Source: Simplicispira hankyongi (GTDB lineage: Bacteria > Pseudomonadota > Gammaproteobacteria > Burkholderiales > Burkholderiaceae_C). Taken from it: a DNA stretch of 64,000 nt. Where the stretch lies: positions 1,054,001 to 1,118,000 of the forward strand of contig NZ_QXJC01000001.1 in NCBI RefSeq assembly GCF_003570885.1, in the 5' to 3' direction. Position 1 is the stretch's first letter. The number at the start of each line of letters is the position of its first letter. This document shows, in pieces, positions 3,203-38,456 of the stretch. Under the pieces are notes generated by a model, which saw only the letters and a program-made list of their open reading frames with translations, searched no databases and was not told where the DNA came from. The translations under genes were made by a program, and so were the position numbers.

Positions 3203-3450
3203 CAGCGCCGTAGGCGGTTCGCCCCGCCCCCTCTTGCTGAAAGGCTTAATGGCGGGGCGCCACACCCATTATTTGCCGGCAGGCTGGCGGTTGATGCGGC
3301 GCGTGGGTTGCACGGCGCGCGGCCCGTCGCCGCAAGCCAAGCGAACCGCCTGCTGTTAAAAATTCAAAATTGGTAGCTGCTTGCGCTTGCTGCGTAAGCG
3401 CTAGAGGCCGATTTGACCTAATAAATGCGCGGACGATTACACTGCGCCGC
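3203..3450. repeat. Intergenic region with AGCGCT-family dispersed repeat (about 3361-3421)
   Basis: After the FHA-like gene there is about 150 bp without recognisable features, then a copy of the dispersed repeat: TTCAAAATTGGTAGCTGCTT, a GTAAGCGCTAGAGGCCGATT half-stem and TTGACC. The same building blocks (TAGCTGCT, AAGCGCTAGAGGCC, ATTTGA) recur at 21763, 33893 and, on the other strand, 44005. The stem is imperfect in this copy. It lies in the leader of the GIY-YIG-like gene. Confidence 0.7.
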
Positions 3451-4935: not shown

Positions 4936-5089
4936 GGCACGGAAATCATAGCGAGGGCATCTGGCGGCCACCGCGCTGCCCGGCCTGCGGGCCAAGCGTG
5001 CGCGCAGTGGAGTGGCTCAGCGCCCACACATCCAATACGCGTGAAAGCACCGGCGCTTCGGGTTCAAACAATAGCGGCCGAATCGTCCT

Positions 5090-5257
5090 CTAGGGAGCCT
5101 CTGCACGAATCGCGTGGCAAGTGGGCGCTGCGGATCGGGATGAGCTGCAAGGCGCAAATCGCAGCGATAGCCGTAGCTATGCGAGGATTTGCAACGCTGC
5201 AGATCGCCCGAGGCCGCAGATGCACACGGCGCGACGATTCGTGCAGAGGCTCCCTAG
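5090..5257. repeat. 168-bp palindromic (MITE-like) element, copy A
   Basis: It is bounded by a perfect 23-bp inverted repeat (5090-5112 and 5235-5257; arm begins CTAGGGAGCCTCTGC). The core (about 5145-5215) has a nested hairpin, GCGCAAATCGCAGC ... GAGGATTTGC, followed by a GATCGCCCGAG tail. The core matches the element at 61414-61582 closely while the outer arms differ. There is no coding capacity and no convincing target-site duplication. It lies 17 bp beyond the stop of the kinase gene. Confidence 0.8.
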
Positions 5258-5280
5258 CGCTTGTACATCAAGCGCTAGCC
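5254..5280. repeat. CTAGCGCTT...AAGCGCTAG stem-loop at the 3' end of the kinase gene
   Basis: CTAGCGCTTG and CAAGCGCTAG pair around a short loop and overlap the last bases of element A. The TAG stop codon of the kinase gene (5275-5277) lies in the stem. The stem matches the AGCGCT dispersed family. There is no long T-run on either side, so it is not an obvious intrinsic terminator, but it may protect the mRNA end. Confidence 0.6.
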
Positions 5281-7683
5281 CGACGACTGCCGAAACGCCA
5301 TCACCGCCTGGTTGCGCAGGGTGCGCAGCATGGCCAGCTCTTTTTCATCGACCACCAGGCTGCCCAGCTCTGCCTTGTCGGCATAGATCATGCCGAACGC
5401 ACGCCCCTTGAGCAGCAACGGCAGGATCAGAAAAGTGGGGGCGTCGACCGCCTTGCGGTACCAATCGGGCAGGCGCTCGGCGATGCGGGGTGCGCTGGCA
5501 TCGCTGATGAGGGTGTCCGCCCCCTTGGCACAGATGGTGGCAAACAGGTCGGGCTTGTCACCCTCGACCGCCATCGGCACGCGAAACTGCTTGACGGCGC
5601 CCTCCACGCCCATGCCCAGCCCAAAGCGGCCCGTCAGGGTATCGTTTTTGGCGTCGCGCATGCAGAACACGATGCGGTGGAAGTCCAGCGCGCGGAACAT
5701 GGTCTCCAGAATCATGCGCAGCACGTCGCTGAGCTTGAACTCTTCCACCATCGCATTGGTGATGTCCTGAATACCGGCGGCCAGGATTTCCGAGACTTGC
5801 TCGTTGCCTTGCGGGTCCGCCTCCGGCGAGGCGGGCAGTTTCTGGGTGGCCTGTAGCTCGGTCGCGGCAAGGGCATCCTGCCCCCCGGTGGACGTTGCCG
5901 GCACTGGCACTGGTGCGTCGCCGGCTCCCTGGAGCAACTGCGCCGCGCGGGAATTGGCGCGCACGGTAATGGCCATGGCCTGCGCCAACTCAACGAGCTT
6001 CTTGCGCGCCGTAGCCGTGGCAGCCTGCATAGCGTCCAGGCTCAGCCCCAGGGTTTTCTCGTAGGTCTTGGCGGCCTGGGTGAGACGTGCGTCGACGTCT
6101 CGTGGATCGGTGTGCAGCATGGCATCGGCCATGTCGTTGGCGGCGCGTGCGCTCCAGCGCAAACGTTCCAGCGCGTCGGCTGGAACCCGGCCGGGTGGCT
6201 CGCCGGGCGGCCGCACGATGCAGCGCTGGATGCTCTCGGGCAGGCCCCAGGCCTTGGCAATCCCCAGACCGAGCGCCTCGTAGGTAATGCCCAGCACACG
6301 GGTGGAGGCGACATCCTCATCGACGGGCTCGCGCGACGCGGTGACCAGCTTGCGGACATTGGCTGCCTCTTCCGGGAAGTAGAACTGCGCCAGCATGCGT
6401 CCAAGGTTCTGAAACAAAGCACCAATGAAGGCCTCTTCGCCTTCTTTGGTAGAGCGACCCATTTCGCCCGCGACCGACCCGGCCATCAGGGCACGCAGGA
6501 ATTCCTCCTTGAGCAGATGCGCGTTGGATTTGTCCTGCATGTGCTCAAGCAGCACCAGGCTGAGCGCCATGTTGCGAATGTTGTTCAGGCCCACCAGGCT
6601 CACCGCGCGCGAGACCGTGCCGATGCTGGTGCCGCGTGCATAGTGCGCGCTGTTGACCAGGCGCAGCAGCTTGTTGGTCAGCGCCACATCTTTCAGGATT
6701 TCGTTGGTAACGCTGCTGACGCTTTCCTTGTCGGAAGACGCCATGCTTTGAATCTTGCCAATCGACTCGGACAGCGCCGGGAAATCGCTCTTGCTGCGCA
6801 TGCGGCGCAGCAGAAATTCGAGGGTGCTGTTCTGCGTGGCGGAGCTGGGCGCTTGCGCCTCATCCGTGTGTGCGCCGGACCACTTGCGCAAGGCATCGAG
6901 AAATGCCTGTGCGCCTGCGTAGCGCTGCTGGGGATCAAAGGCCGTGGCGCGCAGCACGATGGCCCGCAGGGCATCGTCCAGCCCTTCGAGCAGCCCTGCG
7001 GGCAGCTGCAGTGGCTCGCGGGCAGCACGCTGCAGGGCTTTCATGGCATCCGTCCCGGTTCTGATGGGCTTGCCCCACAGCACTTCGGCCAGCAGGAGCC
7101 CGGCGCCATACACGTCCATCAACGGGGAAATGGCTTCGCCCCGAATCGCTTCGGGCGCCATGTAGCCGGGGCTTCCGGCCGCATCCTGCCCCTTGGCGCC
7201 TGCCTGCGCGCGGCCCATGCGGGCGGCAATGCCGAAATCCATGACTCTGGCCCGCCCATTGGTATCGAGCAGCACGTTGGAGGGCTTGAGATCGCGGTGC
7301 ACCACGCCACCGGCGTGCGCTACCACCAGGGCACTGAGCACGTCCTGCAAGATGGGTACCGCCGCGTTAGCGGGGATTGCGCCTTGCCCTGCCAGGCGCT
7401 GGGCCAAGGTCTGCCCTGCCACGTATTCAAACACCAGATAGGGCTGGTGCTCGTGCACATCGGCTTCAAACACCGGCACGATGTTGGCGTGCGTCAGGCG
7501 GCTGACGCTGCGCGCTTCCTGCAGCCATTGCTGGACGGCGGATGCCTCCTGCGGGGGCACCGGTTTCATCTGCTTGATGGCGACCTCGCGCTCCAGGCGC
7601 GGGTCAAATGCCAGCCAGACCTGTGCCTGTGCCCCCTGCCCCAACATTCGCTTGAGTTCAAAACGACCGATGTGGGTTTTCAT
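5275..7683 (-). CDS. Ser/Thr protein kinase-HDOD-GAF signalling protein
   Basis: 802 residues. The N-terminal Hanks-type kinase (about 7-270) has the Gly-rich loop LGQGAQAQV, VAIK with Lys37, HRDLKPSN (129-136), DFG (149-151) and a SPGYMAPE activation segment, so it should be active. An HDOD domain follows (about 300-500; FPALSESIGKIQ, LVNSAHY, GLNNIRNMALSL). A variable Ala-rich linker leads to a C-terminal GAF domain (about 640-795). I see no membrane segment. HDOD proteins often take part in cyclic-di-GMP or stress signalling and GAF binds small ligands, so this looks like a ligand-gated cytoplasmic kinase; substrates are unknown. The FHA-like protein gene lies about 2 kb downstream. Confidence 0.88.
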   Translation of the reverse strand: MKTHIGRFELKRMLGQGAQAQVWLAFDPRLEREVAIKQMKPVPPQEASAVQQWLQEARSVSRLTHANIVPVFEADVHEHQPYLVFEYVAGQTLAQRLAGQGAIPANAAVPILQDVLSALVVAHAGGVVHRDLKPSNVLLDTNGRARVMDFGIAARMGRAQAGAKGQDAAGSPGYMAPEAIRGEAISPLMDVYGAGLLLAEVLWGKPIRTGTDAMKALQRAAREPLQLPAGLLEGLDDALRAIVLRATAFDPQQRYAGAQAFLDALRKWSGAHTDEAQAPSSATQNSTLEFLLRRMRSKSDFPALSESIGKIQSMASSDKESVSSVTNEILKDVALTNKLLRLVNSAHYARGTSIGTVSRAVSLVGLNNIRNMALSLVLLEHMQDKSNAHLLKEEFLRALMAGSVAGEMGRSTKEGEEAFIGALFQNLGRMLAQFYFPEEAANVRKLVTASREPVDEDVASTRVLGITYEALGLGIAKAWGLPESIQRCIVRPPGEPPGRVPADALERLRWSARAANDMADAMLHTDPRDVDARLTQAAKTYEKTLGLSLDAMQAATATARKKLVELAQAMAITVRANSRAAQLLQGAGDAPVPVPATSTGGQDALAATELQATQKLPASPEADPQGNEQVSEILAAGIQDITNAMVEEFKLSDVLRMILETMFRALDFHRIVFCMRDAKNDTLTGRFGLGMGVEGAVKQFRVPMAVEGDKPDLFATICAKGADTLISDASAPRIAERLPDWYRKAVDAPTFLILPLLLKGRAFGMIYADKAELGSLVVDEKELAMLRTLRNQAVMAFRQSSG

Positions 7684-7800
7684 GGGAGTTGCGGCTGACC
7701 AAATATCTCTGTGAAGTATGGCATGTGCTGCGCCTCTCGCGCCCCTGCCGAAACCCTGAAAGCACTGCCGCGCCGTGGCCGGCGAACGAAGCGAATGCCG

Positions 7801-9357
7801 TCAGCTTCTGCCTGAAACCGCCTCGATAGATATGCGCCACTGCTCGCGCAGCGCCGTCTTTAGCACCTTGCCGTAGTTGTTCTTGGGCAGCGCCTGCACG
7901 ACGCGGTAGTGCTTGGGCCGCTTGAAGCGCGCCATCTGCGCCAGGCAGTGCTGGTCGAGCGTTTCGGTGGTGGTCGCGGCGCCAGACTGCAACACCACGA
8001 AAGCGACGACCACTTCGCCCCAGGCCGGGTCCGGCGCGCCCACTACGGCCACTTCTGCCACGCCGGGGGCGGTGAGCAGGACTTCTTCCACCTCGCGCGG
8101 GTAGATGTTGGAGCCGCCGCTGATGATGAGGTCTTTGCTGCGGTCTTTGAGCGTAAGAAAGCCCTCGGCATCCAGACAGCCGACATCGCCGGTAAACAGC
8201 CAGCCACCGCGCAAGGCCGCCGCCGTGGCCTCGGGATTGCGCCAGTAGCCGGCCATGACACTGTCGCCCCGCACCAGCACCTCACCGACCTCGCCCAGCG
8301 GCAGCTCAGCGCCGTGTTCGTCGGCCACGCACAACTGCACCGGTGTCTGGGCGACGCCCACCGAAGCGAGACGCACCAGGTAGCGCGGATGCGCGGCGTC
8401 CGCCAGTTGCGCACGCGAGAGCGCGGTGGCAACCATGGGCGTTTCGCCCTGGCCATAGATCTGTACAAAGCGGGGCCCCATGACCTGGAGCGCACGCTGA
8501 ATGTCCGCCACGTACATGGGCGCACCACCGTAGACAATGGTCTTGAAGGCGCGGGCGCAGGCCTCTTGGTCCAGTCCCGCCTGCTGCGCGTGGTCCACCA
8601 GGCGATTGACGATGGTGGGAGCAGCAAAGGTGGAGAGGCCGCCCAGTTCCCAGCCCAGCGCAAACAGCTCGGCCGGGTCCACCCCGCCGGACTGGGGCAC
8701 CACGTGGCGCGCACCCGCCATCAAATGCGGGATGGCATACAGCCCGGCGCCGTGCGACATGGGCGCGGCGTAAACGATGGCGTCCTGCGCGGCCACCGGG
8801 TCCACGTCGATGAAGTACGTCAGCCCCATGGTCATGAGGTTGCGGTGCGTGAGCATCACGCCCTTGGGCCGGCCGGTGGTGCCGCTGGTGTAGAACAGCC
8901 AGGCGACGTCGTCCGGGGCACGCTCGGCGGTGGGCACGGCCCACGGGTCATCCACCGGCGCCAGCAAGGCGTCGGCCTCGGGCGACTCCACGTCGATTTG
9001 CCGCTCCAGCCCGGCCAGCGCCCCGGGCGCCACGTCGCCGGTCACAAAACCCCAGCGCGCCTGGGCGTTGTCCACGATCCATTCGGTTTCACGCGGGTGC
9101 AGCTTGGCGTTGACCGGTACCACCACCAGGCCGGCCCACCAGGCGGCGCACAGCACCTCCAGGTAGCGCGGGTGGTTGCGCATGAAGAGCAGCACCCGGT
9201 CGCCGGGCACCAGACCCGCGGTGCGCATGCGTCCGGCCAGCGCGGCACTGCGCGCGGCCCATTCGCCGTAGCTCGCCCAGGGCTTGCGGCCTTCGAAGAT
9301 GGCGGGGCGATCGGGGGACAGGCGGGCGTGGCGCTGCAACAGGTGAATGAGGCTCAT
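7801..9357 (-). CDS. AMP-forming acyl-CoA synthetase / acid-CoA ligase
   Basis: 518 residues from ATG 9357 (MSLIHLLQRHARLSPDRPAI); an alternative ATG lies five codons upstream. It has the ANL-superfamily motifs: the P-loop-like LFYTSGTTGRPKGVMLTH, the YGQGE segment, GWLFTGDVG and a C-terminal KDLIISGGSNIYPREVE hinge, with the conserved Lys in the KNNYGKVLK tail. These enzymes activate carboxylic acids to acyl-adenylates and then CoA thioesters. The substrate (fatty, aromatic or branched acid) cannot be read from sequence. It is divergent from the YeeE pair and lies upstream of the kinase gene on the same strand with 117 bp between. Confidence 0.88.
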   Translation of the reverse strand: MSLIHLLQRHARLSPDRPAIFEGRKPWASYGEWAARSAALAGRMRTAGLVPGDRVLLFMRNHPRYLEVLCAAWWAGLVVVPVNAKLHPRETEWIVDNAQARWGFVTGDVAPGALAGLERQIDVESPEADALLAPVDDPWAVPTAERAPDDVAWLFYTSGTTGRPKGVMLTHRNLMTMGLTYFIDVDPVAAQDAIVYAAPMSHGAGLYAIPHLMAGARHVVPQSGGVDPAELFALGWELGGLSTFAAPTIVNRLVDHAQQAGLDQEACARAFKTIVYGGAPMYVADIQRALQVMGPRFVQIYGQGETPMVATALSRAQLADAAHPRYLVRLASVGVAQTPVQLCVADEHGAELPLGEVGEVLVRGDSVMAGYWRNPEATAAALRGGWLFTGDVGCLDAEGFLTLKDRSKDLIISGGSNIYPREVEEVLLTAPGVAEVAVVGAPDPAWGEVVVAFVVLQSGAATTTETLDQHCLAQMARFKRPKHYRVVQALPKNNYGKVLKTALREQWRISIEAVSGRS

Positions 9358-9407
9358 GCCAGCATTTTCCATGCTCCCCGCAGACAGCGTGCAGACCCGC
9401 CCAGATA

Positions 9408-9890
9408 ATGCAGCCCATGGACCTGGCGCATTCCCTCTTTCCTCTGGGCTGGCAGCACTACCTGCTCGGCGGCGTACTCATTGGCACCGGCGTGGCGCTG
9501 TTGTTTGTGCTCACCGGCCTGGTGGGCGGCATGAGCACGGTGTTCTCATCCACCTGGTCGTTCGTGGTCCAGCGGCCATACTTTCAGCAAGCCAGATTCA
9601 CCGATTCGCGCGGTTGGCGGTTGGTCTTTGCGCTGGGACTGGTGCTCGGCGCCTTGCTGTGGTGGCTGGTCCTTGCCCATGGCGCACCGCAAACCACGGG
9701 CCTGCCGGCATGGCGTTTGCTGCTCGGGGGTGTCCTGGTGGGCTACGGCGCGCGGCTGGGCAATGGCTGTACCTCGGGCCATGGCATTTGCGGGCTGGGC
9801 TCGCTGCAGTGGCCCTCGCTTCTGGCCGTGCTGACCTTCATGGCCACGGCCTTCCTCACCGCCAATTTGGCCGCAAGGTGGCTGGCATGA
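9408..9890 (+). CDS. YeeE/YedE family transporter, N-terminal half protein
   Basis: 160 residues with four hydrophobic segments and the family signature RLGNGCTSGHGICGLG near residue 125. The conserved Cys is characteristic of the YeeE/YedE (TsuA-like) family, linked to uptake of thiosulfate or other sulfur compounds. In E. coli YeeE is one long chain; here the family is split into two small proteins. The stop overlaps the ATG of the next gene (ATGA), so the halves should be made in equal amounts and assemble together in the inner membrane. Confidence 0.85.
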   Translation: MQPMDLAHSLFPLGWQHYLLGGVLIGTGVALLFVLTGLVGGMSTVFSSTWSFVVQRPYFQQARFTDSRGWRLVFALGLVLGALLWWLVLAHGAPQTTGLPAWRLLLGGVLVGYGARLGNGCTSGHGICGLGSLQWPSLLAVLTFMATAFLTANLAARWLA

Positions 9891-10315
9891 GCGCGCAACG
9901 CATGAACCTGCCGCGCTTTGTCACCGTGCTGGTGGCCGGCGCGCTGTTTGGCTTTGGCCTGGCCGTCTCTACCATGGTTCGGCCCGAAGTGGTACTGGGT
10001 TTCCTGCGCTTTCAGGATTTCGGGCTGATGCTCGTGATGGGCGGCGCCATGGGGGTCACGCTGGTCGCCTACCAGTTGGCGCCGCGCATGCTCTCGCGCC
10101 CACTGATCGGAGAGCGCTTTCACCACCACGCCAGCGTGTGGAACCGCGACACCGTGCGCGGTGCTGCCCTGTTCGGCATCGGCTGGGGCCTGTGCGGCGT
10201 CTGCCCCGGCCCGGCCATTGCGGGTCTGGGCACTGGCAACTGGACGCTCTTGTGGGCACTGGCCGGCATTGCCCTCGGCGCACTGGCCCAGGGCCTGCGC
10301 GCCAGGCACCAATAA
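9887..10315 (+). CDS. YeeE/YedE family transporter, C-terminal half protein
   Basis: 142 residues from the ATG overlapping the preceding stop. It has several hydrophobic segments and the second family motif IGWGLCGVCPGPAIAGLGTG, the counterpart of the NGCTSGHG motif in the partner. This pattern of two half-length YeeE proteins is common in proteobacteria. The expected role is half of a sulfur-compound channel; the substrate is not shown. A longer upstream-extended ORF is open but overlaps the partner gene entirely and is rejected. Confidence 0.85.
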   Translation: MSAQRMNLPRFVTVLVAGALFGFGLAVSTMVRPEVVLGFLRFQDFGLMLVMGGAMGVTLVAYQLAPRMLSRPLIGERFHHHASVWNRDTVRGAALFGIGWGLCGVCPGPAIAGLGTGNWTLLWALAGIALGALAQGLRARHQ

Positions 10316-10325
10316 ATTGGTAAAT

Positions 10326-10340
10326 TGGGGTCAGACCCCA
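10326..10340. terminator. Candidate bidirectional terminator hairpin
   Basis: TGGGGTCAGACCCCA is a perfect 7-bp stem around a single A, followed by GTTTTC on the plus strand and preceded by an A/T-rich stretch serving the minus strand. It lies between the convergent YeeE half and methyltransferase-like genes. The same half-motif (TCTGACCCCAATT) recurs at about 59076. The T-run is short, so efficiency is uncertain. Confidence 0.5.
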
Positions 10341-10350
10341 GTTTTCTGCA

Positions 10351-10815
10351 CTACAGCCACCGGCGCACCTGGCTGCGGTAGGCGGTGTAGGCGGCGCCGA
10401 AGCGCTCGGTGAGCACGCGCTCCTCCGGCAAGATCTGAAAACGTGTGATGTAGGCCGCAAACGCTGGCGGCCCGAGCAAGGCCCAGGGTGCGGCCAGGTA
10501 CAGCGCCAGGCCCAGCAGGATGAACACCAGTCCGAGGTACATGGGGTTGCGCGTGATGCGGTAGATGCCTGTCGTCACGACATGCGTGCTGGTGTGCGGC
10601 GCCATGGGGTTGACGGTCGTTTTTGCCCGCCTGAAGGCGACCAGGCCCGCCAGGTCACAGCCGACGCCCACTGCAGCAAGGACCAGAGCGCCGCCTACGC
10701 GTACACCTGCCGGCAGCGCCAGTACAGGCCCGAGCCCGAGCGACGCAGACACCATGGCTGCAGCCGTAATGGCAGCGACCAGTGGCGGAGGAATTTTGAG
10801 TTCGAGGGCAGACAT
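10351..10815 (-). CDS. Isoprenylcysteine carboxyl methyltransferase-like membrane protein
   Basis: 154 residues from ATG 10815 (MSALELKIPPPL). Four hydrophobic segments are followed by the ICMT/phospholipid methyltransferase signature: TGIYRITRNPMYLGLVFILL, then the RFQILPEERVLTERFG tail containing the conserved Glu pair. In this family the C-terminal motifs bind S-adenosylmethionine at the membrane face. Bacterial members are seldom characterised, so the methyl acceptor is unknown. An in-frame ATG at 10866 is possible but adds a non-hydrophobic lead. Confidence 0.82.
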   Translation of the reverse strand: MSALELKIPPPLVAAITAAAMVSASLGLGPVLALPAGVRVGGALVLAAVGVGCDLAGLVAFRRAKTTVNPMAPHTSTHVVTTGIYRITRNPMYLGLVFILLGLALYLAAPWALLGPPAFAAYITRFQILPEERVLTERFGAAYTAYRSQVRRWL

Positions 10816-10959
10816 GAGCGGCACAACATTCAAAGGGTGGTACCCACCATGATGCAAGCTGTTCATCGGGCACACAAAGGGTATAAGGCACTTTAGCGCA
10901 CTGCTCCAAGCCCGACGCGCCGGGTATGCTCCTCGTGCCGAAACCCGCACCATCCCACC

Positions 10960-11208
10960 ATGAAAAAACTCCACGTCACCATCGAACTCGAAATGTCCGT
11001 TCCCGACGATTGGGAACTGGCCGACACCTCCGAGGGCACGCCCGTGCTCAAGCTGCCCGATGGCACCTACCTCGATCTGACCATCGAACCCCTGTTTGCC
11101 GCCAACCCGGAAGACACCTGGGCCAGCGCCGACGATGACGAAGTACTGAACGATTTGCTGGACATGGTGGACAGCGAGCTCGTGCGCTATGAATTCGTGA
11201 CGCACTGA
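10960..11208 (+). CDS. Conserved small acidic protein, function unknown
   Basis: 82 residues starting MKKLHVTIELEMSVPDDWEL. It is strongly acidic towards the C-terminus (NPEDTWASADDDEVLNDLLD) with no Cys, no membrane segment and no motif I recognise. The strand-rich start and codon use similar to its neighbours support a real gene. It stands alone between divergent (methyltransferase-like) and co-directional (M23 peptidase) genes. Function not assignable. Confidence 0.65.
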   Translation: MKKLHVTIELEMSVPDDWELADTSEGTPVLKLPDGTYLDLTIEPLFAANPEDTWASADDDEVLNDLLDMVDSELVRYEFVTH

Positions 11209-11264
11209 AGCACATAGCTTAGCCAGCCAGCGCCCGCGTGCGCACACTGGTAGGCTTGCCAACC

Positions 11265-12182
11265 ATGCCTGCACTGCGCTACACCCCCGATTCATCCCCC
11301 ACGCTTGGTATGCCGTCCCGTCGCTGGGCACTGGCCGGTGCGCTCGCGGTGGCGACTTGGCCGGCACTGCGGCCTGCCTGGGCAGCCCCCGCCAATCGCA
11401 CTGACGGCCCGCTGCCGCGCACGCTGCAGGTGCCCGGCGGCGTGGCGCGCCTGGCGCTCGGTCCGGCGGCTGCACGCCCACGCGCCTTCACGGCTGCCAC
11501 GGACGGTGCCAGCGAGGTGCCTTTGCTGGTGCTGGGGGACCCCAGGGGCTGGACGGCAGTGCTGGGCATTGCCCTCTTGGCCAGTACCGGCGCGGCGCAG
11601 ATCCGCGTGGAGGACGCAGGCGGCAGCAGCCGGACCATTGCCTACACCATCGCGCCCAAGCAGTACCGCGAGCAGCGGCTGACGGTGGCACCGCGCACGG
11701 TGGATTTGTCACCCGAGGACGAAGCCCGCTGGGAACGCGAGCGCGCGCACCAGGCCGGTGTGATGGCCACGTTCAGCACGCCGCTGCCGCGCAGCCTGGC
11801 CTTGCAAGTGCCGGTGCCGGGCCGGCGCTCCAGCTCATTTGGGCTGCGCCGGGTGTTCAATGGCCAGGCGCGCAATCCGCACAGCGGCATGGACATCGCT
11901 GCCGCTACCGGAACGCCGGTGCTAGCGCCGCTCCCGGCACGCGTCATCGACACGGGCAACTACTTTTTCAACGGCAACACCGTGTGGCTGGACCATGGAG
12001 GCGGCCTGCTCACCATGGACTGCCACCTGAGCGCCATCGACGTGCAAGTGGGAGACACCGTGGACGCAGGTCAGCGTGTGGGCGCTGTCGGCGCCACCGG
12101 CCGCGTGACGGGGCCACACCTGCATTGGGGCGTGATGCTCAACCGCTGCATGGTGGACCCTGCGCTGTTTCTGCCAGCTTGA
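11265..12182 (+). CDS. Exported M23 (LytM-type) metallopeptidase
   Basis: 305 residues from ATG 11265; ATG 11310 would start directly at the signal peptide MPSRRWALAGALAV ... PAWA. The mature part has an N-terminal beta domain and a C-terminal M23 domain with the zinc ligands HSGMD (His and Asp) and the catalytic GPHLHWGVML block. All key residues are kept, so the enzyme should cleave peptidoglycan cross-bridges in the periplasm. It ends 8 bp before the convergent patatin gene stop. Confidence 0.88.
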   Translation: MPALRYTPDSSPTLGMPSRRWALAGALAVATWPALRPAWAAPANRTDGPLPRTLQVPGGVARLALGPAAARPRAFTAATDGASEVPLLVLGDPRGWTAVLGIALLASTGAAQIRVEDAGGSSRTIAYTIAPKQYREQRLTVAPRTVDLSPEDEARWERERAHQAGVMATFSTPLPRSLALQVPVPGRRSSSFGLRRVFNGQARNPHSGMDIAAATGTPVLAPLPARVIDTGNYFFNGNTVWLDHGGGLLTMDCHLSAIDVQVGDTVDAGQRVGAVGATGRVTGPHLHWGVMLNRCMVDPALFLPA

Positions 12183-12190
12183 CGCGGGCA

Positions 12191-13147
12191 TCAGAGAAAC
12201 ATCGCCAGGCGATCCCGGTCCAGCTCGCTCAGGGTTTTCTGCCCCAGTGCCATCAGGGTCTTGGTGGCTTCTGGCGTGGCAACGTCAATCCCCAGGCCTG
12301 CCTGCGCCGGCCAGTGCGCGTCGATGCGCAGGTAGCGCTCTTCCAACAGGTCTTCCATGACTGCCTCCACATGCTGCTGCTGCACCGAGATCAGGGTCAG
12401 GATCAAACGCCCCTCGCTTAGCCAACCGACAGCTCCGGCGTCGGCCTCCACATTGTCGGCGGGCTGGTAGCCCATGGTGGCGGTGCCTACGGCGAGCATG
12501 CGCACCTTGGCCTGCTTGGCGCCCATGAAGTGCTGCGCCTCGTGCAGCGCCACCTGATCTGGCGCCACGGCAAAAAGCCCGCCATCGGCGTACAAGCGCT
12601 CTCCCACCTTGACGCACGGAAAATACGCCGGCGCAGCGCAGGTGGCGAGTGTCACGTCTACCGCGGACAGTGCCTCGTCGCCCAGAGAGCCCTGGGTATG
12701 GGGCGTCTTGAACACCTTGGTGACACTGCGGCTGACGTCCACCGCCGGAACCACCACGGCGTGTTGGGCGTCGCCCATGGTGCGGTCGCCAAAATGTTTC
12801 GCCAGTTCGCGCCGCAGGGCTTCTCCGGTGTACTTGGGGCCAAGCACCGAACGCGTCATGTCCAGCAAGCGCGTGACCGTGCCACCGGGCAGGCGGCGTG
12901 AGGAAAACACCTCTTCACCACGCTCGACAAAGAGCCGCACGATCTGCGCCATCGGCACTTCGAAGGCCAAGGCCATCGCCAGCAGGCCGCCAACGGAAGT
13001 GCCGGCAATCAGGTCAAAACGCCGGCCCAGCGGTTCCCCCACCCGGGCTTCCAGGTCAGCAAGAACCACGGCGGTATACAGGCCCAGATACCCTCCCCCG
13101 CTGAGCGATAGGATGCGAAATTCGTTGGGGCTGGTCATGCTGGGCAT
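12191..13147 (-). CDS. Patatin-like phospholipase, CapV-like architecture
   Basis: 318 residues. The patatin core is complete: the oxyanion block LSLSGGGYLG, nucleophile elbow GTSVGG with the catalytic Ser, and the DGG motif (LYADGG) with the catalytic Asp. The first lines (FRILSLSGGGYLGLYTAVVL and FDLIAGTSVGG) closely resemble CapV phospholipases that act as effectors in CBASS anti-phage systems, and the length fits a patatin domain plus a C-terminal extension. No CD-NTase, Cap2 or Cap3 gene lies nearby, so either this is an ordinary lipid hydrolase or an orphan effector. There is no signal peptide; action on inner-membrane lipids from the cytoplasm is expected. Confidence 0.85.
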   Translation of the reverse strand: MPSMTSPNEFRILSLSGGGYLGLYTAVVLADLEARVGEPLGRRFDLIAGTSVGGLLAMALAFEVPMAQIVRLFVERGEEVFSSRRLPGGTVTRLLDMTRSVLGPKYTGEALRRELAKHFGDRTMGDAQHAVVVPAVDVSRSVTKVFKTPHTQGSLGDEALSAVDVTLATCAAPAYFPCVKVGERLYADGGLFAVAPDQVALHEAQHFMGAKQAKVRMLAVGTATMGYQPADNVEADAGAVGWLSEGRLILTLISVQQQHVEAVMEDLLEERYLRIDAHWPAQAGLGIDVATPEATKTLMALGQKTLSELDRDRLAMFL

Positions 13148-13222
13148 TGCGGGCGGGGCACAAAAAAGAACAGCGCTTGCTTCGCCCGGACAAAGTCTTG
13201 GGCACTGCTGCGTCTGGCAGGG

Positions 13223-16200
13223 TCAGGTCCGCGTGGAATTTCGACCTGAAACTACCTCAGGGCCGCCCTCACGCGCAAACATCCAGTCGGTCACGGCCTG
13301 CTCAGGCATGGGGCGGGCGAAATGGTAACCCTGCGCTTCATGGCAGTGGTAGAGGCCCAGGATGCGCGCGACCTCCTCACTCTCGACACCTTCGGCAATG
13401 ACGCGCAGTTTCAGGCTGCGCGCCATGCTGATAATGGCGCGCACGATGGCAGCGTCTTCCGGATCGCTGACGATGTCGCGCACGAAGGATTGGTCGATCT
13501 TGAGCTTGTCCACCGAAAAACGGCGCAGGTAGGCCAGGCTCGAATACCCGGTGCCGAAGTCATCGATCGACAGGCACACCCCCAGCGCCTTGAGGCGGCG
13601 CACCGTCTCCAGGTTGTGGTCGGCGTCGTCGAGCAGCAGCGATTCGGTCAGTTCCAGCTCCAGCCGGCCGGGGTCCAGGCCCGATTCCTCCAGCGCCTGC
13701 GTGACGCTGGCCAGCAGGTCGCCGCGCTTGAACTGCACGACCGAGAGGTTGACTGCCATGGTCAACTCGGGCAGGCCCGCCTGCTGCCAGCGCATGGCCT
13801 GCGCGCAGGCTTCGCGCAGCACCCACTCACCAATTGGCACGATCTGGCCGCTGTCTTCGGCCGCCGGGATGAAACGGCCGGGCGGAATCAGCTCGCCGTC
13901 GCTGCGCTGCCAACGCAGCAAAGCTTCAAAACCCACCACCACCCCGCTCGCCAGGTCGATCTGCGGTTGGTAATGCAGCACAAATTCCCGCTGGTCCAGC
14001 GCCCAGTGCAGGGCCGAGCGCATCTTGAGGTTTTCCAGCGCCTGGACATTCATCTCACCGGTGTAGAACACGTAGGTGTTGCGTCCGGCGTCCTTGGCGC
14101 GGTACATCGCCGTGTCGGCACGTTGCAGCAGGGTATCGAAGTCGGCCCCATCGTCGGGCCAGAGTGCAATGCCCATGGAGAGCGTCGCCGCCAGCTCGTG
14201 GCCTTCAATATGAAAAGGTCGGGCGAGCGCTTCGATCACCTTGTCGGCAATGCGCCCGACCGATTCCACGTCCTGCACGTCGGTAAGCGCAATCAGGAAC
14301 TCATCGCCGCCCTGGCGGCTGATGGTGTCGGTGTCGCGCAAGGTGGTGGTGAGCCGCTCGGCCACCTGCTGCAGCAGCAGGTCTCCCACCGGGTGGCCCA
14401 AGGTGTCGTTGATGGTCTTGAAATGGTCCAGGTCCAGGTACATCAGTGCCAGCTTGCTGCCACTGCGTTCGGACCATGCCTTGGCCAGGTCAAACCTGTC
14501 GCGAAACAACACGCGGTTGGGCAAATGGGTGAGCGGGTCGTGGTGCGCCAGAAATTCAATGCGGGCGGCATTTTCCTTGCGTTCGGTAATGTCCTGCACA
14601 AAGACAACCACGTGCTGCTCTTCGTCGACCTCAATGAGTTCCGCCGACAGGCTGACCTGCCGGTGCTCGCCACTCTTGCAGACCCATACGGCCTCGAACT
14701 CCAAGGTGGAGCCTTTGCGCCGCAATTCCTCGCGCCAAGCCTCGCGCACCCCCAGATCGGCCCACAAACCCACCTCCAAGATGGTGCGCCCCACCAGCTC
14801 GGCAGGCGACCAGCCGAACCAGGTGGTGTAGCGATCGTTCACTTCCACGAACATGCCATCGCGTACGCGTGAAATGGAGGCGGCCAGCGGGCTGGCGCGG
14901 AAAGCCACCTTGAAGCGCATCTCGCTCTCGCGCAGGCTGGTGATGTCCTGGAGTGCTCCGCCCAATGAGAGCGGCTGACCTTCGCCGTCGCGCTGCACGC
15001 TGCCGCTGGCAAAGCCAACGCTGAGGCTGCCGTCGACACGGCGAAAGCGAAACTCGATTTCGTAGGCGGCGTCACCCGCCAGCGCATCGTCCACGGCCTT
15101 GCGCACCCGCGACCGGTCCGCAGGCTCGACATGGCTGAGAAAACCCTCGAAACTTGGTTTCACTTGGCCCGGCGCATAGCCAAAGCAGGCAAAGGTTTCG
15201 TCGCTCCAGTGCAACTCCTGGCTGACGATGTTCCATTCCCAGTGCCCCACGCGTGCAATGCGGGCTGCTTCGCGCATGCCGCGCCGGGCTTCCTGCATCT
15301 CGGTGATGTCATGGAACAGCTCCAGCTTGCTGATGCTGCCGTCCGCATTCTTCAGCGGAATGTCAAAAAGATCGTAGGTGCGCCCCTTGGGAGACACCCA
15401 TTGCCATTGCACCATCTTGCCGGCGAGCACCTCGGGGTTCTTGCACCAAGTGCATGGCGAGGCATTCTGGTGAAAATAATCGTGGCACTTGCGCCCCATC
15501 ACGTCGCCAAATTCGCGCTGCAGCGCTGGGTTGATGTATTCGATCTCGTACTCGGCATTGACGATGTACACCCCGTCGGGCAATGCCTCCAGAATATCGA
15601 GCAGGCGCTGGCGCTCGGCGGCGAGCTTTTCTGCAAGCGACTCGATGTGCTTGATCTTGCTGATTTCGGTCCAGGTCAGGACCACTCCATCGCCCTGGCG
15701 GTCGGCGTTGAAAATGGGCAGCATGCGCTCGAACACCCAGCGCCCGTCGGGCAGCATGGCTTCGCGCTCTACGCGCTGTTCGCCGCTGGCGCAGCGGCGC
15801 AGATCGTCCAGGAATGCCTCCTGCGCACCCAGGCGGTAGCGGATATCCCCCACCGAGCGGCCGATGTCACTGGCCCGCAGCGCCAGGAAGTCGTTCACGC
15901 CGGGACTGAAGCGCCGTACGCACAGGTTCATGTCAAGGAAGACGGTGCCAATCTCGGTGCTGTCAAGCAGGTGGTCGTAATCGCGGTTGAGGGCATCGAG
16001 TTCGTCGTTGCGCTTCTCCAGTTCCGTATTGAGTGCGTACAAGTCCTCGTTCACGGATTTGAGCTCTTCATTGGTGCTCTGCAGCTCCTCGTTGGACGCC
16101 GTGAGTTCCTCGTTGCCCAGGTCCAGGCGCTCGTGGCTGGCTTGCAGTTCCAGCACCATCTCGTGCAGGCGCTCGCGCGTCGCGTCCAGCTCGGCTGCCA

Positions 16201-33890: not shown

Positions 33891-34585
33891 GATACCAAAA
33901 CAATAGCTGCTAGCGCTTACCAGATAAGCGCTAGAGGCCTATTTCATGCAAAACTTTAACCGCCCATGCGCTGTTGGGCGTGCTGCCAAAATCCGGGGTT
34001 GTGGTTGTGGTTGCGCCAACGCTACGCCCTGCGTTCCGGCAGCGGGGTCTGAGCACGAGTTTCGCGGCGCGAAATCGTGGTCCGACCCCACTGCCTGCGC
34101 TGCGTGCCCAGCGACAACTGTTCACGGCCAAGGAAGCCTGAGACAACTGGCCCGGTCACGCGGTTCGCTCTTTCGCTACGAAAGTCTGAGACAGGAGGCC
34201 CCCAGCCGGTCGCGAGCAGTCACGGTGGCAATGTGTGAGGCAGCGAGGATGGCCGCTTCAGGCTGGTTGCAGCCGCTGAGATTTGGCAAGCCTGTGACTG
34301 CTGCCGCCGATATCAGACTTTGACCTGCTATCTGGCCAGACGTCCGCTGTTCGCCTCAAACCAGAAACTGGCTGGATCGCAGTGCGCCAGACAATCTGAA
34401 CGATAGCTCTCGTAAGCTGCGAATTGGTGCTGCCTACCCGTTGCTGTCGTGCCAGCTTCCACCGGCAATGCTTGCTGTGCAGCGAACTCTGCCGGTCAGT
34501 GCCAGCGGAGTGGTCAACCTTATCCGGCACAGGTGGTCAGTTCAGGCGGTATCAACACTCGGGCGACAGGGCCGGACGTGCCGCA
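33891..34585. other. 695-bp gene-poor region, probably decayed sequence
   Basis: It begins with an AGCGCT-family repeat (33893-33946; perfect TAGCGCTTACC ... ATAAGCGCTA stem) and contains REP copy 2 (34044-34089). The remaining 450 bp has no ORF with a plausible start, ribosome site or motif; short ORFs run through the repeats. A CTGAGACA motif occurs twice (34138 and 34186). Base composition is less GC-rich than the flanks. It may be the worn boundary of the inserted module that follows. Confidence 0.6.
34044..34089. repeat. 46-bp palindromic REP, copy 2
   Basis: GGGGTC at 34044-34049 pairs with GACCCC at 34084-34089; inside lie CACG/CGTG and TTTCGC/GCGAAA. Same length as copies at 3843 and 43855. 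Located between the convergent monooxygenase and AAA+ activator genes. Confidence 0.85.
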
Positions 34586-36223
34586 TCATCGACCGTCGTC
34601 GGCGACGTCCTTGAGAAGCGCTTGCGCTTTGCGGCTGGCCCATTTCCCCAGATCTAGGTGGACCTTGTTCGTTCGTAGGAATTTCTTCAACGCTGGCGGA
34701 GACTTCTTCTTATAGACGGCAAGCCTGCTTTGGATGGCGCTCACGTTGAATTCGTTTGCTACGAGCAGTGCTTCAATTTCCCTAGCAATTCGAGCCTGTG
34801 TCGCGTCACTCGCCGTGACTTCGATTCGAGTGTCTTCCAGAGGCACGCCGATGGCAGCCTGGAAGGTGCTTACCCAGTCTGTGGAACCGGTGCGGTCGTA
34901 TTCAAGGAATGCATCGAAGCAGACACGCTCGAACTCCCGCAAGTTGCCGGGCCAGTCATAGGCCTCAAGCACACCAAACGCTTTACGGTCGATAGAGGGA
35001 AGGATGCTTGCGACAAGCCGTGTCTTAAGATCGTCCTCTGCGATGGCGAGGCGCCCCGCTTGGAACTCGATTGCAGGAGCGCTTCGCCATCTATGCAGCC
35101 GCAACAAGCGAATGAGCAGGTCGCCTTCAGTGCCCGCGCGCAAACGCTGCGCAAGGGGCTTCAGCTCCATCCTCGCGCGGATGCGATAGGCCAAGTCCTT
35201 GCGCAACCGGCCCTTCGCTAGCAGCGAGGCCTCGGATTCGTTGGTTGCCATGATGACCCGGACGCGAAAGCGCTTGCGTTCCTTGCCTTGGGCGGCGATT
35301 GGTTCCACTTCGACCGTGTCGGACACAGGGCTGAGCAGGTCCAGCAATTGCACCTGGAAGTCCATTGGTGCCGCCTGGATTTCATCGAGAAATAGGGTGC
35401 CACCGTTGGCTAGCTCGAACCATCCTTTTTGATCCGTCTTGGCGTCGGTGAAGGAGCCCTTGAGATAGCCGCGCAGGCGCGCCTCCAGCAGACTGGGCGA
35501 GACCGCAGCGATGTTCACGGATTTGAAGTCCCCCGACCGCCCTGTTTGCGCTCGCAACTTCTCGTGCAGCGCACGAGCCAGTTCGCTCTTTCCGGCGCCC
35601 GTCTCACCAATGAGCAACCGGGGACCTTCCTTGGGGGAGTGATCGTTGGGCGTGACGGACGTCAGCTGGGACATTACCTGACGCATCAGTTCGTCGAAGG
35701 CTTGGTCCGAAGTATCGACAGCATCATCAGAAACGCAGGAGCGAAGGCGGATGAACGATACGGAGTTGTCTTCAAGCAGGCGAGGCCTCTCCGCCAGTTC
35801 TCTGGCGATCTTGGCGGCAGGCAGTGTTTCGGAGGTGGACGTCTGCAAGAAGCCGATAACCGAACGGCGGGCTACGATTTCGCCCGCGAGCCTTATCAGC
35901 GGCGCCAACTCCTTGATCGAATCTAACTCAGGTTGATCAACCAACTGGGCGGGCTCCATGGTGAGCAACTGGTTCACCAGCTCAGGCCAAGTCTTGCCTG
36001 GAAGCTTCTCAGGTCTTCCTTGCAGCGCGCGCAGGCGTCCAATGACAGACTGATTCGTCTGCTGAACCAGCCGCCACTCTTCCCCGCGTGCCTGGTCGAT
36101 CCAGCCCGATATGAGCGCCTCATCCGCCGACATCACGGCCGCGTGCACCCAGACCCCGTCGCGGCGCCGGGCTGGCGCATCCCGCATTCCCACGACGATG
36201 AAACGCTGCGACAGAATATTCAT
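34586..36223 (-). CDS. Sigma-54-type AAA+ transcription activator without receiver (RtcR/PspF-like layout)
   Basis: 545 residues from ATG 36223. The N-terminal roughly 195 residues have no family I can name with confidence. The AAA+ domain (about 196-435) has Walker A GETGAGKS (206-213), Walker B GGTLFLDE (274-281), sensor I VIMATNES, an Arg-finger RKDLAYRI and WPGNLREFER. The sigma-54 contact loop reads GSFTDA (256-261) instead of GAFTGA, keeping Phe-Thr. The C-terminal segment (about 478-520; ARIAREIEALLVANEFNVSAI) may be a weak DNA-binding helix pair. It faces away from a sigma-54 promoter (36332) and two genes that it probably controls. Confidence 0.8.
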   Translation of the reverse strand: MNILSQRFIVVGMRDAPARRRDGVWVHAAVMSADEALISGWIDQARGEEWRLVQQTNQSVIGRLRALQGRPEKLPGKTWPELVNQLLTMEPAQLVDQPELDSIKELAPLIRLAGEIVARRSVIGFLQTSTSETLPAAKIARELAERPRLLEDNSVSFIRLRSCVSDDAVDTSDQAFDELMRQVMSQLTSVTPNDHSPKEGPRLLIGETGAGKSELARALHEKLRAQTGRSGDFKSVNIAAVSPSLLEARLRGYLKGSFTDAKTDQKGWFELANGGTLFLDEIQAAPMDFQVQLLDLLSPVSDTVEVEPIAAQGKERKRFRVRVIMATNESEASLLAKGRLRKDLAYRIRARMELKPLAQRLRAGTEGDLLIRLLRLHRWRSAPAIEFQAGRLAIAEDDLKTRLVASILPSIDRKAFGVLEAYDWPGNLREFERVCFDAFLEYDRTGSTDWVSTFQAAIGVPLEDTRIEVTASDATQARIAREIEALLVANEFNVSAIQSRLAVYKKKSPPALKKFLRTNKVHLDLGKWASRKAQALLKDVADDGR

Positions 36224-36402
36224 GTTTTCATTGATGAAGCAAATTTCAATTTCAATGATAAGACGAAATTAAATATATGGATTAAATCCCAAGTCATTGA
36301 TTCATATAGAAGTCGTACACTGGAATGGCCCTGGCACAGTTCATGCGGAGTAGTTGGCGTGCATGTCGATGGTCGGCATGCCGCAACCCAGGAGATATAT
36401 CT
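36224..36402. promoter_or_regulatory. AT-rich divergent control region of the sigma-54 module
   Basis: Positions about 36225-36310 are markedly AT-rich (for example TTAAATATATGGATTAAATC) compared with the GC-rich genome, as expected for a bent enhancer region between divergent genes or for imported DNA. The sigma-54 promoter lies at its right end, and AGGAG (36390-36394) serves the small membrane protein gene. The activator gene probably starts from its own promoter within the AT-rich part. Confidence 0.65.
36332..36347 (+). promoter_or_regulatory. Sigma-54 (-24/-12) promoter of the glycine-zipper/GTPase operon
   Basis: TGGCACAGTTCATGCG has a perfect -24 TGGCAC and a GG (36333-36334) to GC (36345-36346) distance of exactly 10 bp; the -12 box ATGCG keeps the TGC core of TTGCW. 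The expected start is about 36358, some 45 nt before ATG 36403. The only gene on the other side codes for a sigma-54 activator. Confidence 0.72.
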
Positions 36403-36780
36403 ATGCAATCCAGTCTGTCCATCAACCGCGCCATTGACATCAACAAGCTGTTGGCATTCCTACGCGCAGGTGCGCCGGCTACCTTCCAGGTGAAGGAGGA
36501 ATTGAGGGATCTAGTGATCAATGCCCTGAAGGAGTTCGCGCGCAGCCACCGCATCACGGTACGCTACGTGGAACCGGGCCGAGAGACGCTCATCATCTGC
36601 TCGGCGGCCGGCTTGATGGCAGGTGCTGGTGCGGGAGCGGCGCTCGCAGGTATCGCGGGTGCGCTGGCCGGTGCCGGCTTAGGTCTCGCCGTTGGCTACG
36701 CTTGCGCCCACGTGAGCGTGAGCATCAGCCCTCTTGCCCACGGCCAGCTTGGCTTCACCGTCGATACCCTCCGTGCTTGA
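36403..36780 (+). CDS. Small glycine-zipper membrane protein, unknown
   Basis: 125 residues from ATG 36403 (MQSSLSINRAIDINKLLAFL), AGGAG at 36390-36394. The first 70 residues are helical and charged (QVKEELRDLVINALKEFARSH). Residues about 72-108 form a glycine/alanine zipper hairpin (GLMAGAGAGAALAGIAGALA, then GAGLGLAVGYA) that probably inserts as two close-packed helices. A short tail ends the protein. I do not recognise a family. It precedes the GTPase gene by 20 bp, so the two should act together at the membrane. Confidence 0.7.
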   Translation: MQSSLSINRAIDINKLLAFLRAGAPATFQVKEELRDLVINALKEFARSHRITVRYVEPGRETLIICSAAGLMAGAGAGAALAGIAGALAGAGLGLAVGYACAHVSVSISPLAHGQLGFTVDTLRA

Positions 36781-36800
36781 ACCGCTTCCAGGACACTGTC

Positions 36801-38072
36801 ATGACCACCCAGAAAAAACTGTCGCTCGTCGACGTAATCCATCGCACTGCGAACCATGCCGTCGAGGACGTCCTGCCGCTGCTGAAGTACCTCGACTTCA
36901 AGCCCGAGGCCAGCGACCTTACCTCGCGCTCTGCAGCACAGCAGATCGCCGACCACCTGCGCCGCATGGGCAGCAATGACATCGCGAGTCTTTTCCGAGG
37001 CGGCGATGGCGTGTCCTACGCGGAAGTGGTTTGCGACGTGGGCGAGAAGCTAAAGGCCAAGGACATATCGTCGTCGAACACGGTGGAGCGCAACGAAGAG
37101 CTAGTCATCGAAAAGGTCTTCGCCGACACGCTCGACTCGATGACTGCTGAGGAAAAGCGCGTCCTGTTCCGCTCAATGAACCTCGACGTCAAGGACGTGC
37201 CGTACGCCGCGAGTGCCGCCGTGCTGATGCCCATCCTGCTGCGTCAACTCGGTGGCTTCGCTACATACAGGTTCGCAGTTATCACCGCGAATATGGTGTC
37301 GCGAGCCTTGTTGGGAAGCGGCCTGAGCTTTGCCACGAATGCCGTCATCACCCGGTCCATCGGTACGCTGCTAGGCCCTATTGGTTGGATCGCCTCAGGC
37401 GCTTGGCTGGCGGTTGACCTCGCCGGACCGGCGTTCCGAAAGACGGTGCCAGCCGTCCTTTACACGGCAACACTGCGCCTCGCGCTGGCCAACCGGCTGA
37501 GCATCGGCGTCGTTGGAGACGGCTCGACCGGCAAGGACACGCTGATCGAGAAGGTTTTCGGCATACCGACCAATGCGGATCCCGTCGCCGGCTCCACCTC
37601 TGAGGCGATGCGCTATGCACTAGGCGGCGGTGGCGACGCCTTCGTCACCAACTATCCCGGTTTCAACGACTATCGGGCTAGGGTGAATGCCTCGACCGAC
37701 GATGCGCTCCACCATACAGATGTCTTCCTGCTTGTCATGGATGCCACTCGCGGCGTTTCAGGCACAGACGTTGCGCTGTGCGAGAAGGTTCGGGCGTTCG
37801 GCAAGCCCGTACTTGTGTGCCTGAACAAGTGGGACCTCATCCGTACCGAGAAGGACGGCATTTCCCTGATGGATGCCGCGCGTAAGCGCTTGAAGATTGA
37901 GCGTATTCAAGGTCCCGACGTGCCCGCCCAGGAAGCGGAACTTGTGCTCTGCGCGCTGGACCCGCTGCCGGCCCTCGGTATCGAGTCGCTAGGAGCCAGC
38001 GAGGTCCGCGAATGGGTCAAGGCGAAATTGCAGACGGCAGGCAAGAACGAGAGCCTCTTGGACGAGTTTTGA
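36801..38072 (+). CDS. YaaW/UPF0174-like membrane domain fused to a GTPase
   Basis: 423 residues from ATG 36801. Residues 1-230 resemble E. coli YaaW: LRRMGSNDIASLFRGGDG followed by VCDVGEKLKAK (YaaW has FGGDSIANKLRG, LLDVSKRLKLK) and, after hydrophobic segments (about 137-175 and 185-207), DLAGPAFRKTVPAVLYTATL (YaaW: GSAYRVTIPAVLQIACL). Residues 232-423 form a GTPase: G1 GDGSTGKDT (239-247, Asp where Ser or Thr is usual), G3 NYPGFND (Asn instead of Asp), G4 NKWD (342-345) and G5-like CALD. It could be a membrane-anchored, dynamin-like or signalling GTPase. Second gene of the sigma-54 operon. Confidence 0.78.
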   Translation: MTTQKKLSLVDVIHRTANHAVEDVLPLLKYLDFKPEASDLTSRSAAQQIADHLRRMGSNDIASLFRGGDGVSYAEVVCDVGEKLKAKDISSSNTVERNEELVIEKVFADTLDSMTAEEKRVLFRSMNLDVKDVPYAASAAVLMPILLRQLGGFATYRFAVITANMVSRALLGSGLSFATNAVITRSIGTLLGPIGWIASGAWLAVDLAGPAFRKTVPAVLYTATLRLALANRLSIGVVGDGSTGKDTLIEKVFGIPTNADPVAGSTSEAMRYALGGGGDAFVTNYPGFNDYRARVNASTDDALHHTDVFLLVMDATRGVSGTDVALCEKVRAFGKPVLVCLNKWDLIRTEKDGISLMDAARKRLKIERIQGPDVPAQEAELVLCALDPLPALGIESLGASEVREWVKAKLQTAGKNESLLDEF

Positions 38073-38456
38073 CGAGGCGCCGGGGGTGCGCAACGCGCGG
38101 CGGCTCAAGCCCATTGTTGCCCGATCGGCAGCGCCGCCCAACCCGGCTTAGGGTTCATCACCCAGTAGGACTTGTTCCCTGTGTCAGTCTTTACTCGCAG
38201 CAGATCCGAACGGCGAAGTCAAGGGCTGATGGTGCGCCCGGCGGTAATGGTCTAGAGCGTCCACGCGACGAGCCGCAAAACAGCGCTTATGAACGACCGC
38301 TTGGTGCCAGTCACCGTGAGTATGCCGAGCGGTGGCCACCGGCAGCACTCGCTGCATAGCGAACGTTCCGGTCTGTCCCCATGCCTCAGGCTTTAATACG
38401 CTGTCTCGGACATTAATGGCAAGGAACAATAGTCCAAGGGTGCCCATGGGGCATTG
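38073..38456. other. 384-bp gene-poor region right of the module
   Basis: No ORF with good coding features is visible. The stretch GAACGACCGCTTGGTGCCAG and the end CTGTCTCGGACATTAATGG look like worn intergenic or mobile DNA. CTGTCTCGGAC (38401-38411) is the reverse complement, with one mismatch, of GTCTGAGACAG at 34184-34194 on the far side of the module. A terminator for the GTPase gene is not obvious. Confidence 0.5.

Follow-up and report, generated by a model that had tools for sequence, protein, structure and literature searches.

A candidate sigma-54-inducible anti-phage cassette built round a JukA-GTPase fusion in Simplicispira hankyongi

We analyzed a stretch of 64,000 nt from Simplicispira hankyongi (GCF_003570885.1, contig NZ_QXJC01000001.1, positions 1,054,001-1,118,000 of the forward strand), which we call the window and number from its first base. 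It contains a cassette in which the gene for a sigma-54 AAA+ activator diverges from a sigma-54 site, a gene for a small glycine-zipper protein, and a gene that fuses a JukA domain to a GTPase domain. On sequence grounds, we consider this cassette reasonably likely to be an anti-phage module that moves horizontally, is switched on through sigma-54, and has a JukA-type sensor at its core. Activator, site, and fusion are found together at five loci in distant bacteria, one of them beside genes of the DISARM defence system, and the cassette is probably an inducible variant of the known Jumbo phage killer (Juk) defence. The Juk system was reportedly described by Li et al. (Cell 2025).

Results

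The cassette has the following order: activator gene (34586..36223, minus strand, 545 aa), sigma-54 -24/-12 site (TGGCACAGTTCATGCG, 36332..36347, plus strand), small glycine-zipper gene (36403..36780 from ATG to stop, plus strand, 125 aa), and JukA-GTPase fusion gene (36801..38072, plus strand, 423 aa). An intergenic stretch of 179 bp (36224-36402) separates the two divergent genes, with a ribosome-binding site for the small gene, AGGAG, recognized by eye at 36390..36394 (plus strand). The spacer between the small gene and the fusion gene is exactly 20 bp (36781-36800), and non-coding DNA lies on both flanks of the cassette. A preliminary description of this DNA had given the same genes, promoter, and spacing, with coordinates that proved right in the window sequence, and had correctly called the flanks gene-poor. 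Missing from it were the identity of the core as JukA and the atypical form of the GTPase at two nucleotide-binding motifs. The G+C content of the cassette is 0.599, versus 0.661 in the remainder of the window.

The whole unit recurs at 96.7% DNA identity over window positions 34414-38355 on IMG/VR contig 3300025116_000059 (locus L020), the sole viral-contig record that we obtained. With a further blastn match reaching 38364, we place the transferred cassette at 34414..38364 (96.6-96.7% identity). All three genes are intact in L020, with ratios of nonsynonymous to synonymous substitution (dN/dS) of 0.48, 0.40, and 0.15, and we therefore regard the three open reading frames as real genes; the ratios indicate purifying selection on them.

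To the left of the fusion's GTPase domain, the N-terminal half is identified as JukA by three PADLOC models (best match PDLC04111, E 6.7e-42, residues 9-231), which places a helical domain of the YaaW/DUF3944 type at 36825..37493 (plus strand). The NCBIfam model NF007593 (PRK10236), listed as "acidic protein MsyB" and which we take to be YaaW, matches residues 42-229 at E 2.6e-9. It scores 37 bits where the curated cut-off requires 395, and we treat the fusion as a domain relative only and not as a YaaW equivalog.

PF01926 (MMR_HSR1) matches the C-terminal half at E 1e-6, above the family cut-off, and marks it as a GTPase domain. TRAFAC GTPases usually have a P-loop of the form GxxxxGK[S/T] and a G3 motif of the form DxxG. 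Across the seven close fusions that we collected (see below), the P-loop ends in GKD, with Asp in place of Ser or Thr (GDGSTGKD in the window, 37515..37538, plus strand), and G3 carries Asn in place of Asp, reading NYPGF, NFPGF, or NYAGF (NYPGF in the window, 37650..37664, plus strand). A TRAFAC-type G4 motif, NKxD, is present in all seven (NKWD, 37824..37835, plus strand), and the TRAFAC fold is indicated by the PF01926 match and by the resemblance of the modeled GTPase part to Era/EngB-type chains. Because the GKD P-loop and the Asn in G3 occur in all seven close fusions, GTP hydrolysis should not be assumed.

An AlphaFold2 model of the fusion (22 alignment rows; mean predicted local distance difference test score, pLDDT, 82.9) is helical in its JukA half and alpha/beta in its GTPase half, and is weak at residues 171-210 (about 50-65) and 370-377. 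When we searched with this model using Foldseek, the 50 of 1771 rows considered were all GTPases, with template-modeling scores of 0.22-0.33 by query length, including NOG1 (from ribosome particles, root-mean-square deviation near 18), Era, EngB, EF-Tu, IRG, and mitofusin; among those 50, we saw nothing related to the JukA half by itself.

A scan of genome contigs gave 64 pattern hits, two of which were relatives: L012 (Rheinheimera sp. 4Y26, Pseudomonadota), whose fusion is 54% identical to the window's, and L013 (a Polyangiaceae metagenome-assembled genome, Myxococcota), at 51%. Both have a divergent activator, a small gene, and the fusion, in the same order as in the window. Whole-genome searches with fusion alignments covered 398, 196, 394, 235, and 369 genomes, in samples that may overlap, at an E limit of 1e-10 or 1e-20, so that more distant fusions can be missing. 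They added three close fusions with E near 1e-117: L038 (genome G624, in the same family as Rheinheimera by search grouping), L080 (G971), and L081 (G1002). L038 has the activator, a sigma-54 site, and the fusion. Thus five of the seven close fusions (window, L020, L012, L013, L038) have a divergent activator and site; since L020 and the window are almost the same sequence, these amount to four well-separated sequences. The preliminary description had noted the divergence of the activator from a sigma-54 promoter, and this arrangement is kept across two phyla, Pseudomonadota and Myxococcota. It had also counted scattered homologues against a conserved neighbourhood; activator and promoter are both kept at these five and not at L080, L081, or the distant Myxococcota fusions L082 and L084, an outcome largely though not entirely in its favour. 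With the distant fusions counted, the activator is present at five of nine fusion loci.

How often such an activator would adjoin an operon by chance can be gauged from its frequency: the activator query has 12 matches in 4.1 Mb in Rheinheimera and 50 in 8.0 Mb in Polyangiaceae, or one per ~160-340 kb. By chance alone, an activator would thus lie within 2 kb in ~1-3% of cases, and because the pairing recurs four times with a divergent site, we do not attribute it to chance.

As controls, we used 13-18 kb around 15 loci with stand-alone JukA (L021-L024, L039, L040, L083, and L085-L092; 16 genes). Stand-alone hits in 12 further genomes (G795, G907, G915, G933, G966, G973, G990, G1058, G1147, G1231, G1433, and G1458) were left out, as was G727, which has the same coordinates as G285. 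A hidden Markov model (HMM) search detected a sigma-54 activator at none of the 15 loci, and the best site score upstream of the 16 genes was 8/11. A tree built from 23 JukA domains separates the seven fusions from a group (support 89/83) that takes in 15 of the 16 stand-alone rows; the branch of the sixteenth, from L024, is too long to place. Two stand-alone JukA proteins, in L021 (8779-9564, minus strand) and L023 (7994-8959, plus strand), have by eye a four-cysteine, zinc-ribbon-like tail. Plasmid and phage searches returned matches to one half of the fusion only, none covering 80% of it, and in 25 congeners, several with incomplete genomes, the matches listed covered the GTPase part only.

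L080 and L081 have a WYL-type regulator near the fusion. They share a block (L080 5261-12922, L081 5224-12898) that holds the JukA-GTPase gene, a gene for a 111-aa protein, a regulator gene, assigned as WYL by PADLOC in L080, and, by eye, a RadC-like gene. Among 235 Myxococcota genomes, 29 contain at least two GTPases like the GTPase half of the fusion, many of them adjoining and some with a faint JukA-like N-terminus. Three such proteins (L082 6415-7626, minus strand; L084 3982-5076 and ~5040-6254, plus strand) have the GKD P-loop and Asn in G3. These GTPases look like a paired family of their own.

We scored sigma-54 sites at 11 positions of the -24/-12 consensus. The window site matches 9/11 of these positions, the sites of L020, L012, and L013 match 10/11, and that of L038 matches 11/11; their distances to the first ATG are 71, 71, 68, 50, and 72 bp for window, L020, L012, L013, and L038, respectively. 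In shuffles scored on the operon strand, the corresponding p values were 0.0096, 0.0012, 0.0004, 0.0024, and 0/5000. For the window, where the 179-bp intergenic stretch was shuffled, this amounts to p ~0.01 on the operon strand and 0.03 on either strand. The pattern with at most two mismatches is not enriched across the window (62 found versus 56.7 expected), and the window site by itself is weak evidence. We consider it credible because, at the other four loci that have a divergent activator, sites of 10-11/11 lie 50-72 bp before the operon. The window and L020 differ at 20 of the 179 intergenic bases; within the site only the last of its 16 bases differs, and the 16 bases ahead of the site are the same in both. 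The host genome carries rpoN.

The activator comprises an N-terminal domain (~1-175), an AAA+ domain (~180-440), and a divergent C-terminal part with a presumed helix-turn-helix. Its AAA+ domain matches PF00158 (Sigma54_activat, E 3e-38, starting at residue 180), and no receiver domain was found among the 17 Pfam families listed, so the preliminary description was correct in calling it a sigma-54 activator without a receiver. The best PADLOC model is RtcR_PspF2 (E 3e-44, residues 124-434), and the AAA+ part matches solved PspF chains as well as PspF models in an NCBIfam search. The canonical sigma-54-contacting loop is GAFTGA. The corresponding loop reads GSFTDA in the window (35441..35458, minus strand) and L020, GAFTDA in L012, GSFTGA in L013, and GAFTGA in L038. 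Residues R341, D343, R347, and R349 are invariant in all five activators. The protein thus has the AAA+ domain of a bacterial enhancer-binding protein, with arginine fingers and a GAFTGA-type loop in variant form; its AAA+ part is ordinary except for the loop Asp in window, L020, and L012.

The N-terminal part is less conserved, at 24-25% identity between the window and L012 or L013, and an HMM of it does not pick up the N-terminus of the L038 activator. Matches to the window activator among plasmid proteins number 2342 records; in three of these, drawn from 30 listed, the neighbours are two-component genes and genes for ABC or tricarboxylate transporters, which shed no light on the cassette.

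The small protein has an N-terminal part of ~60 aa followed by a hydrophobic, Gly/Ala-rich region (residues ~62-102) in which the GxxxGxxxG motif occurs three times, with one overlapping pair; it is a candidate membrane effector. Its counterparts in L012 and L013 are 28% and 33% identical to it and likewise carry three such motifs, and an HMM of the small protein detects the Rheinheimera (L012) counterpart reading frame at E 1e-14. It had no match in Pfam, NCBIfam, or PADLOC below E 0.01, none in PHROG at E up to 0.01, and its profile found nothing among solved structures below E 0.11. We tried JukB as an identity for the small protein, which the PADLOC search did not support. From its position and composition, it may take the place of JukB. 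As a regular member of the unit, which the preliminary description had taken it to be, the small gene is present in window, L020, L012, and L013 and fails in the remaining close relatives (see Discussion).

Several observations suggest that the cassette moves. The genes that flank it are 4566 bp apart in the window. At four of 19 congener loci (L095-L098), the cassette is absent between the same flanking genes, which lie 232 to ~800 bp apart; at the other 15, the left neighbour falls outside the stretch, making them uninformative on absence. Compared with its closest congener, L095, the window shows DNA similarity up to about 34100 and then again only within the gene on the right. A 29-bp direct repeat lies near both ends of the cassette (34459..34487 and 38336..38364, plus strand; 76% identity between copies), the right copy ending where similarity to L020 ends, and its combined pattern has two matches in the window versus zero expected. 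With the L020 copy and the four empty loci, these comparisons indicate that the cassette is a transferable, self-contained unit, as the preliminary description had proposed.

The surroundings of the relatives include mobility and defence genes. The L013 cassette lies between an integrase gene and DISARM genes (DrmC/DrmB/DrmA). In L020, an integrase gene lies at the contig end and, ~15 kb on, a protein matches phage DNA transposition proteins. Next to the L020 cassette (6034-7302 and 7218-13433, minus strand) are genes for two proteins, one of 2071 aa that has an ATPase domain and one of 422 aa that belongs to no PADLOC or PHROG family, and L031 has a 1117-aa frame without a PHROG family at its edge (1-3352, minus strand); it is possible that these L020 and L031 neighbours are further defence genes. 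In L038 (4468-8597, plus strand), the JukA-GTPase gene is convergent with genes whose products PADLOC models assign to the dynamin-type GTPases, one LeoBC-like (821 aa) and the other LeoA-like (555 aa). They belong to different GTPase families and are not found in the window. Because they adjoin the JukA-GTPase gene there, GTPases with membrane segments can be said to recur. The JukA homology and the DISARM neighbour in L013 agree with a phage response as the likely role of the unit, which the preliminary description had offered as one of two.

Discussion

If the cassette is an inducible anti-phage module, a phage-infection or envelope signal would act on the N-terminal domain of the activator, whose AAA+ hexamer would open the sigma-54 RNA polymerase complex at 36332-36347, and the fusion and the small protein would then be made. 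By analogy with published JukA, the JukA half may home to the place where the phage injects or to its early vesicle. The GTPase half could act as a switch, either on/off or for assembly, that handles nucleotide in an unusual way, and the glycine-zipper protein would insert into the membrane and break it, in place of JukB.

A number of results weigh against this interpretation. Two of the seven close fusions (L080, L081) have no activator within 15 kb, and neither do the distant fusions L082 and L084 have a sigma-54 activator in the 14 and 11 kb read. The window's own site is the lowest-scoring of the five, and activator-free L081 has a 9/11 site-like match upstream, equal to the window's; L080 has no such match. 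Asp replaces Gly in the sigma-54 loop of three of the five activators. The activator C-terminus has no Pfam helix-turn-helix match at E up to 1, its Fis-like pattern being recognized by eye only. An AlphaFold2 model of the N-terminal domain had a mean pLDDT of 45.7 and was discarded, and a profile comparison of this domain with seven RtcR_PspF2 (CARF-type) N-termini gave a probability of 1.2%, with only four rows on the activator side. L038 lacks the small gene, and the 111-aa protein beside the fusion in L080 and L081 aligns poorly with the small protein (17% identity, no GxxxGxxxG). Finally, the small protein has no JukB match at E up to 1 in PADLOC, and the JukB model PDLC04114 (323 positions) matches nothing in the host genome, nor in 14 control genomes.

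The papers cited below were covered in excerpts, and statements on them refer to those excerpts. Defences specific for nucleus-forming jumbo phages are described as few (PMC12931631). Juk is characterized by halting nucleus-forming jumbo phages at the early vesicle. In it, the sensor JukA detects proteins of the early phage programme inside the early infection vesicle, and it partners diverse effectors, which include the pore former JukB and transcriptional regulators (PMC13282480). The cassette resembles Juk in its JukA domain, in a second gene for a candidate membrane-acting protein, and in its defence and mobile context. It differs in that JukA is fused to a GTPase, in having a 125-aa glycine-zipper protein where Juk has JukB, and in its dedicated divergent sigma-54 activator; jukAB of P. 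aeruginosa PA14 is described as constitutively expressed (PMC12571901).

An alternative to which we assign a low probability is a Psp-like envelope-stress response without phage specificity, in which the activator would be released by membrane damage, and repair or remodelling of the inner membrane would fall to the GTPase and zipper protein. PspF, described as an AAA+ domain and helix-turn-helix only, activates the membrane-associated phage shock system (PMC4012209), and the cassette follows the same outline logic, with a receiver-less activator that would drive a neighbouring membrane-linked operon through sigma-54; the similarity of its AAA+ domain to PspF chains and models points the same way. 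In contrast to PspF, the cassette activator has ~175 aa ahead of its AAA+ domain, and no PspA model was among the Pfam and NCBIfam hits of the two operon proteins. The core protein, moreover, is JukA, whose tested relatives are anti-phage, and the narrow distribution, the insertion of the cassette, and the DISARM neighbour speak against a general stress response.

A bolder form of the anti-phage reading, which we hold to be a similarly slim prospect, is a closed PspA/PspF-like loop. The JukA-GTPase would be a membrane-bound sensor that holds the sigma-54 activator until GTP or phage binding, and an early vesicle would trigger a burst of sensor and pore protein. Were this true, the cassette would represent Juk in an inducible form that amplifies itself, and its GTPase would belong to a new nucleotide-binding type (GKD/NxxG).

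Less probable still is that the cassette is mobile-element cargo for element competition or maintenance, of the abortive-infection or addiction type, with a self-toxic zipper protein held low by tight sigma-54 control. Such cargo would suit the nearly identical copy in L020, an IMG/VR contig that also encodes an integrase and a phage-type transposition protein, as well as the integrase in L013, and tight promoters would suit toxic products. Against it, we recognized no antitoxin-like partner, and the published role of JukA is not addiction; this explanation also overlaps with the anti-phage module rather than opposing it. That the activator adjoins the operon by chance and controls something else is very improbable, given the divergent arrangement and site in four well-separated sequences and the sparseness of such activators in two genomes, even though the window site alone is unexceptional and two of seven close and both distant fusions lack an activator.

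Fusions of YaaW and GTPase (UPF0174 with MMR_HSR1) were noted in 2008 in Shewanella and Campylobacter coli (PMC2268670). They join the same two domains, in an account that, in the part covered, names no promoter, activator, small gene, or function. A 2014 paper predicted that RtcR-like sigma-54 activators, some of them beside restriction-modification genes, respond to infection by turning on the genes next to them (PMC4012209). The cassette activator shares with them the sigma-54 AAA+ domain and the RtcR_PspF2 assignment. Unlike them, it has no detected CARF domain, and its adjacent operon encodes the small protein and the JukA-GTPase rather than rtcBA or restriction-modification. The preliminary description knew of no account of the combination. 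This is no longer so for JukA and the YaaW-GTPase fusions, which are published; it still holds for their control by sigma-54, which we did not find in the literature searched, the primary Juk report lying outside it. Specifically, no sigma-54-controlled JukA appears in the excerpts of PMC13282480, PMC12571901, PMC2268670, PMC4012209, PMC12931631, and PMC11394524, and look-ups in PMC7159879 and PMC12908238 were likewise empty. Because Juk effectors include transcriptional regulators and that report was not covered, part of the combination may already be known. Literature searches for jukA together with sigma-54, and for glycine zippers in defence, found nothing among the papers covered.

With a dedicated sigma-54 switch, such a group of JukA loci would bring in inducibility, a step that involves a GTPase, and another kind of candidate pore. 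At ~4 kb, the unit is compact and suited to testing which signal the activator reads, and its conserved GKD/NxxG nucleotide site poses a separate biochemical question.

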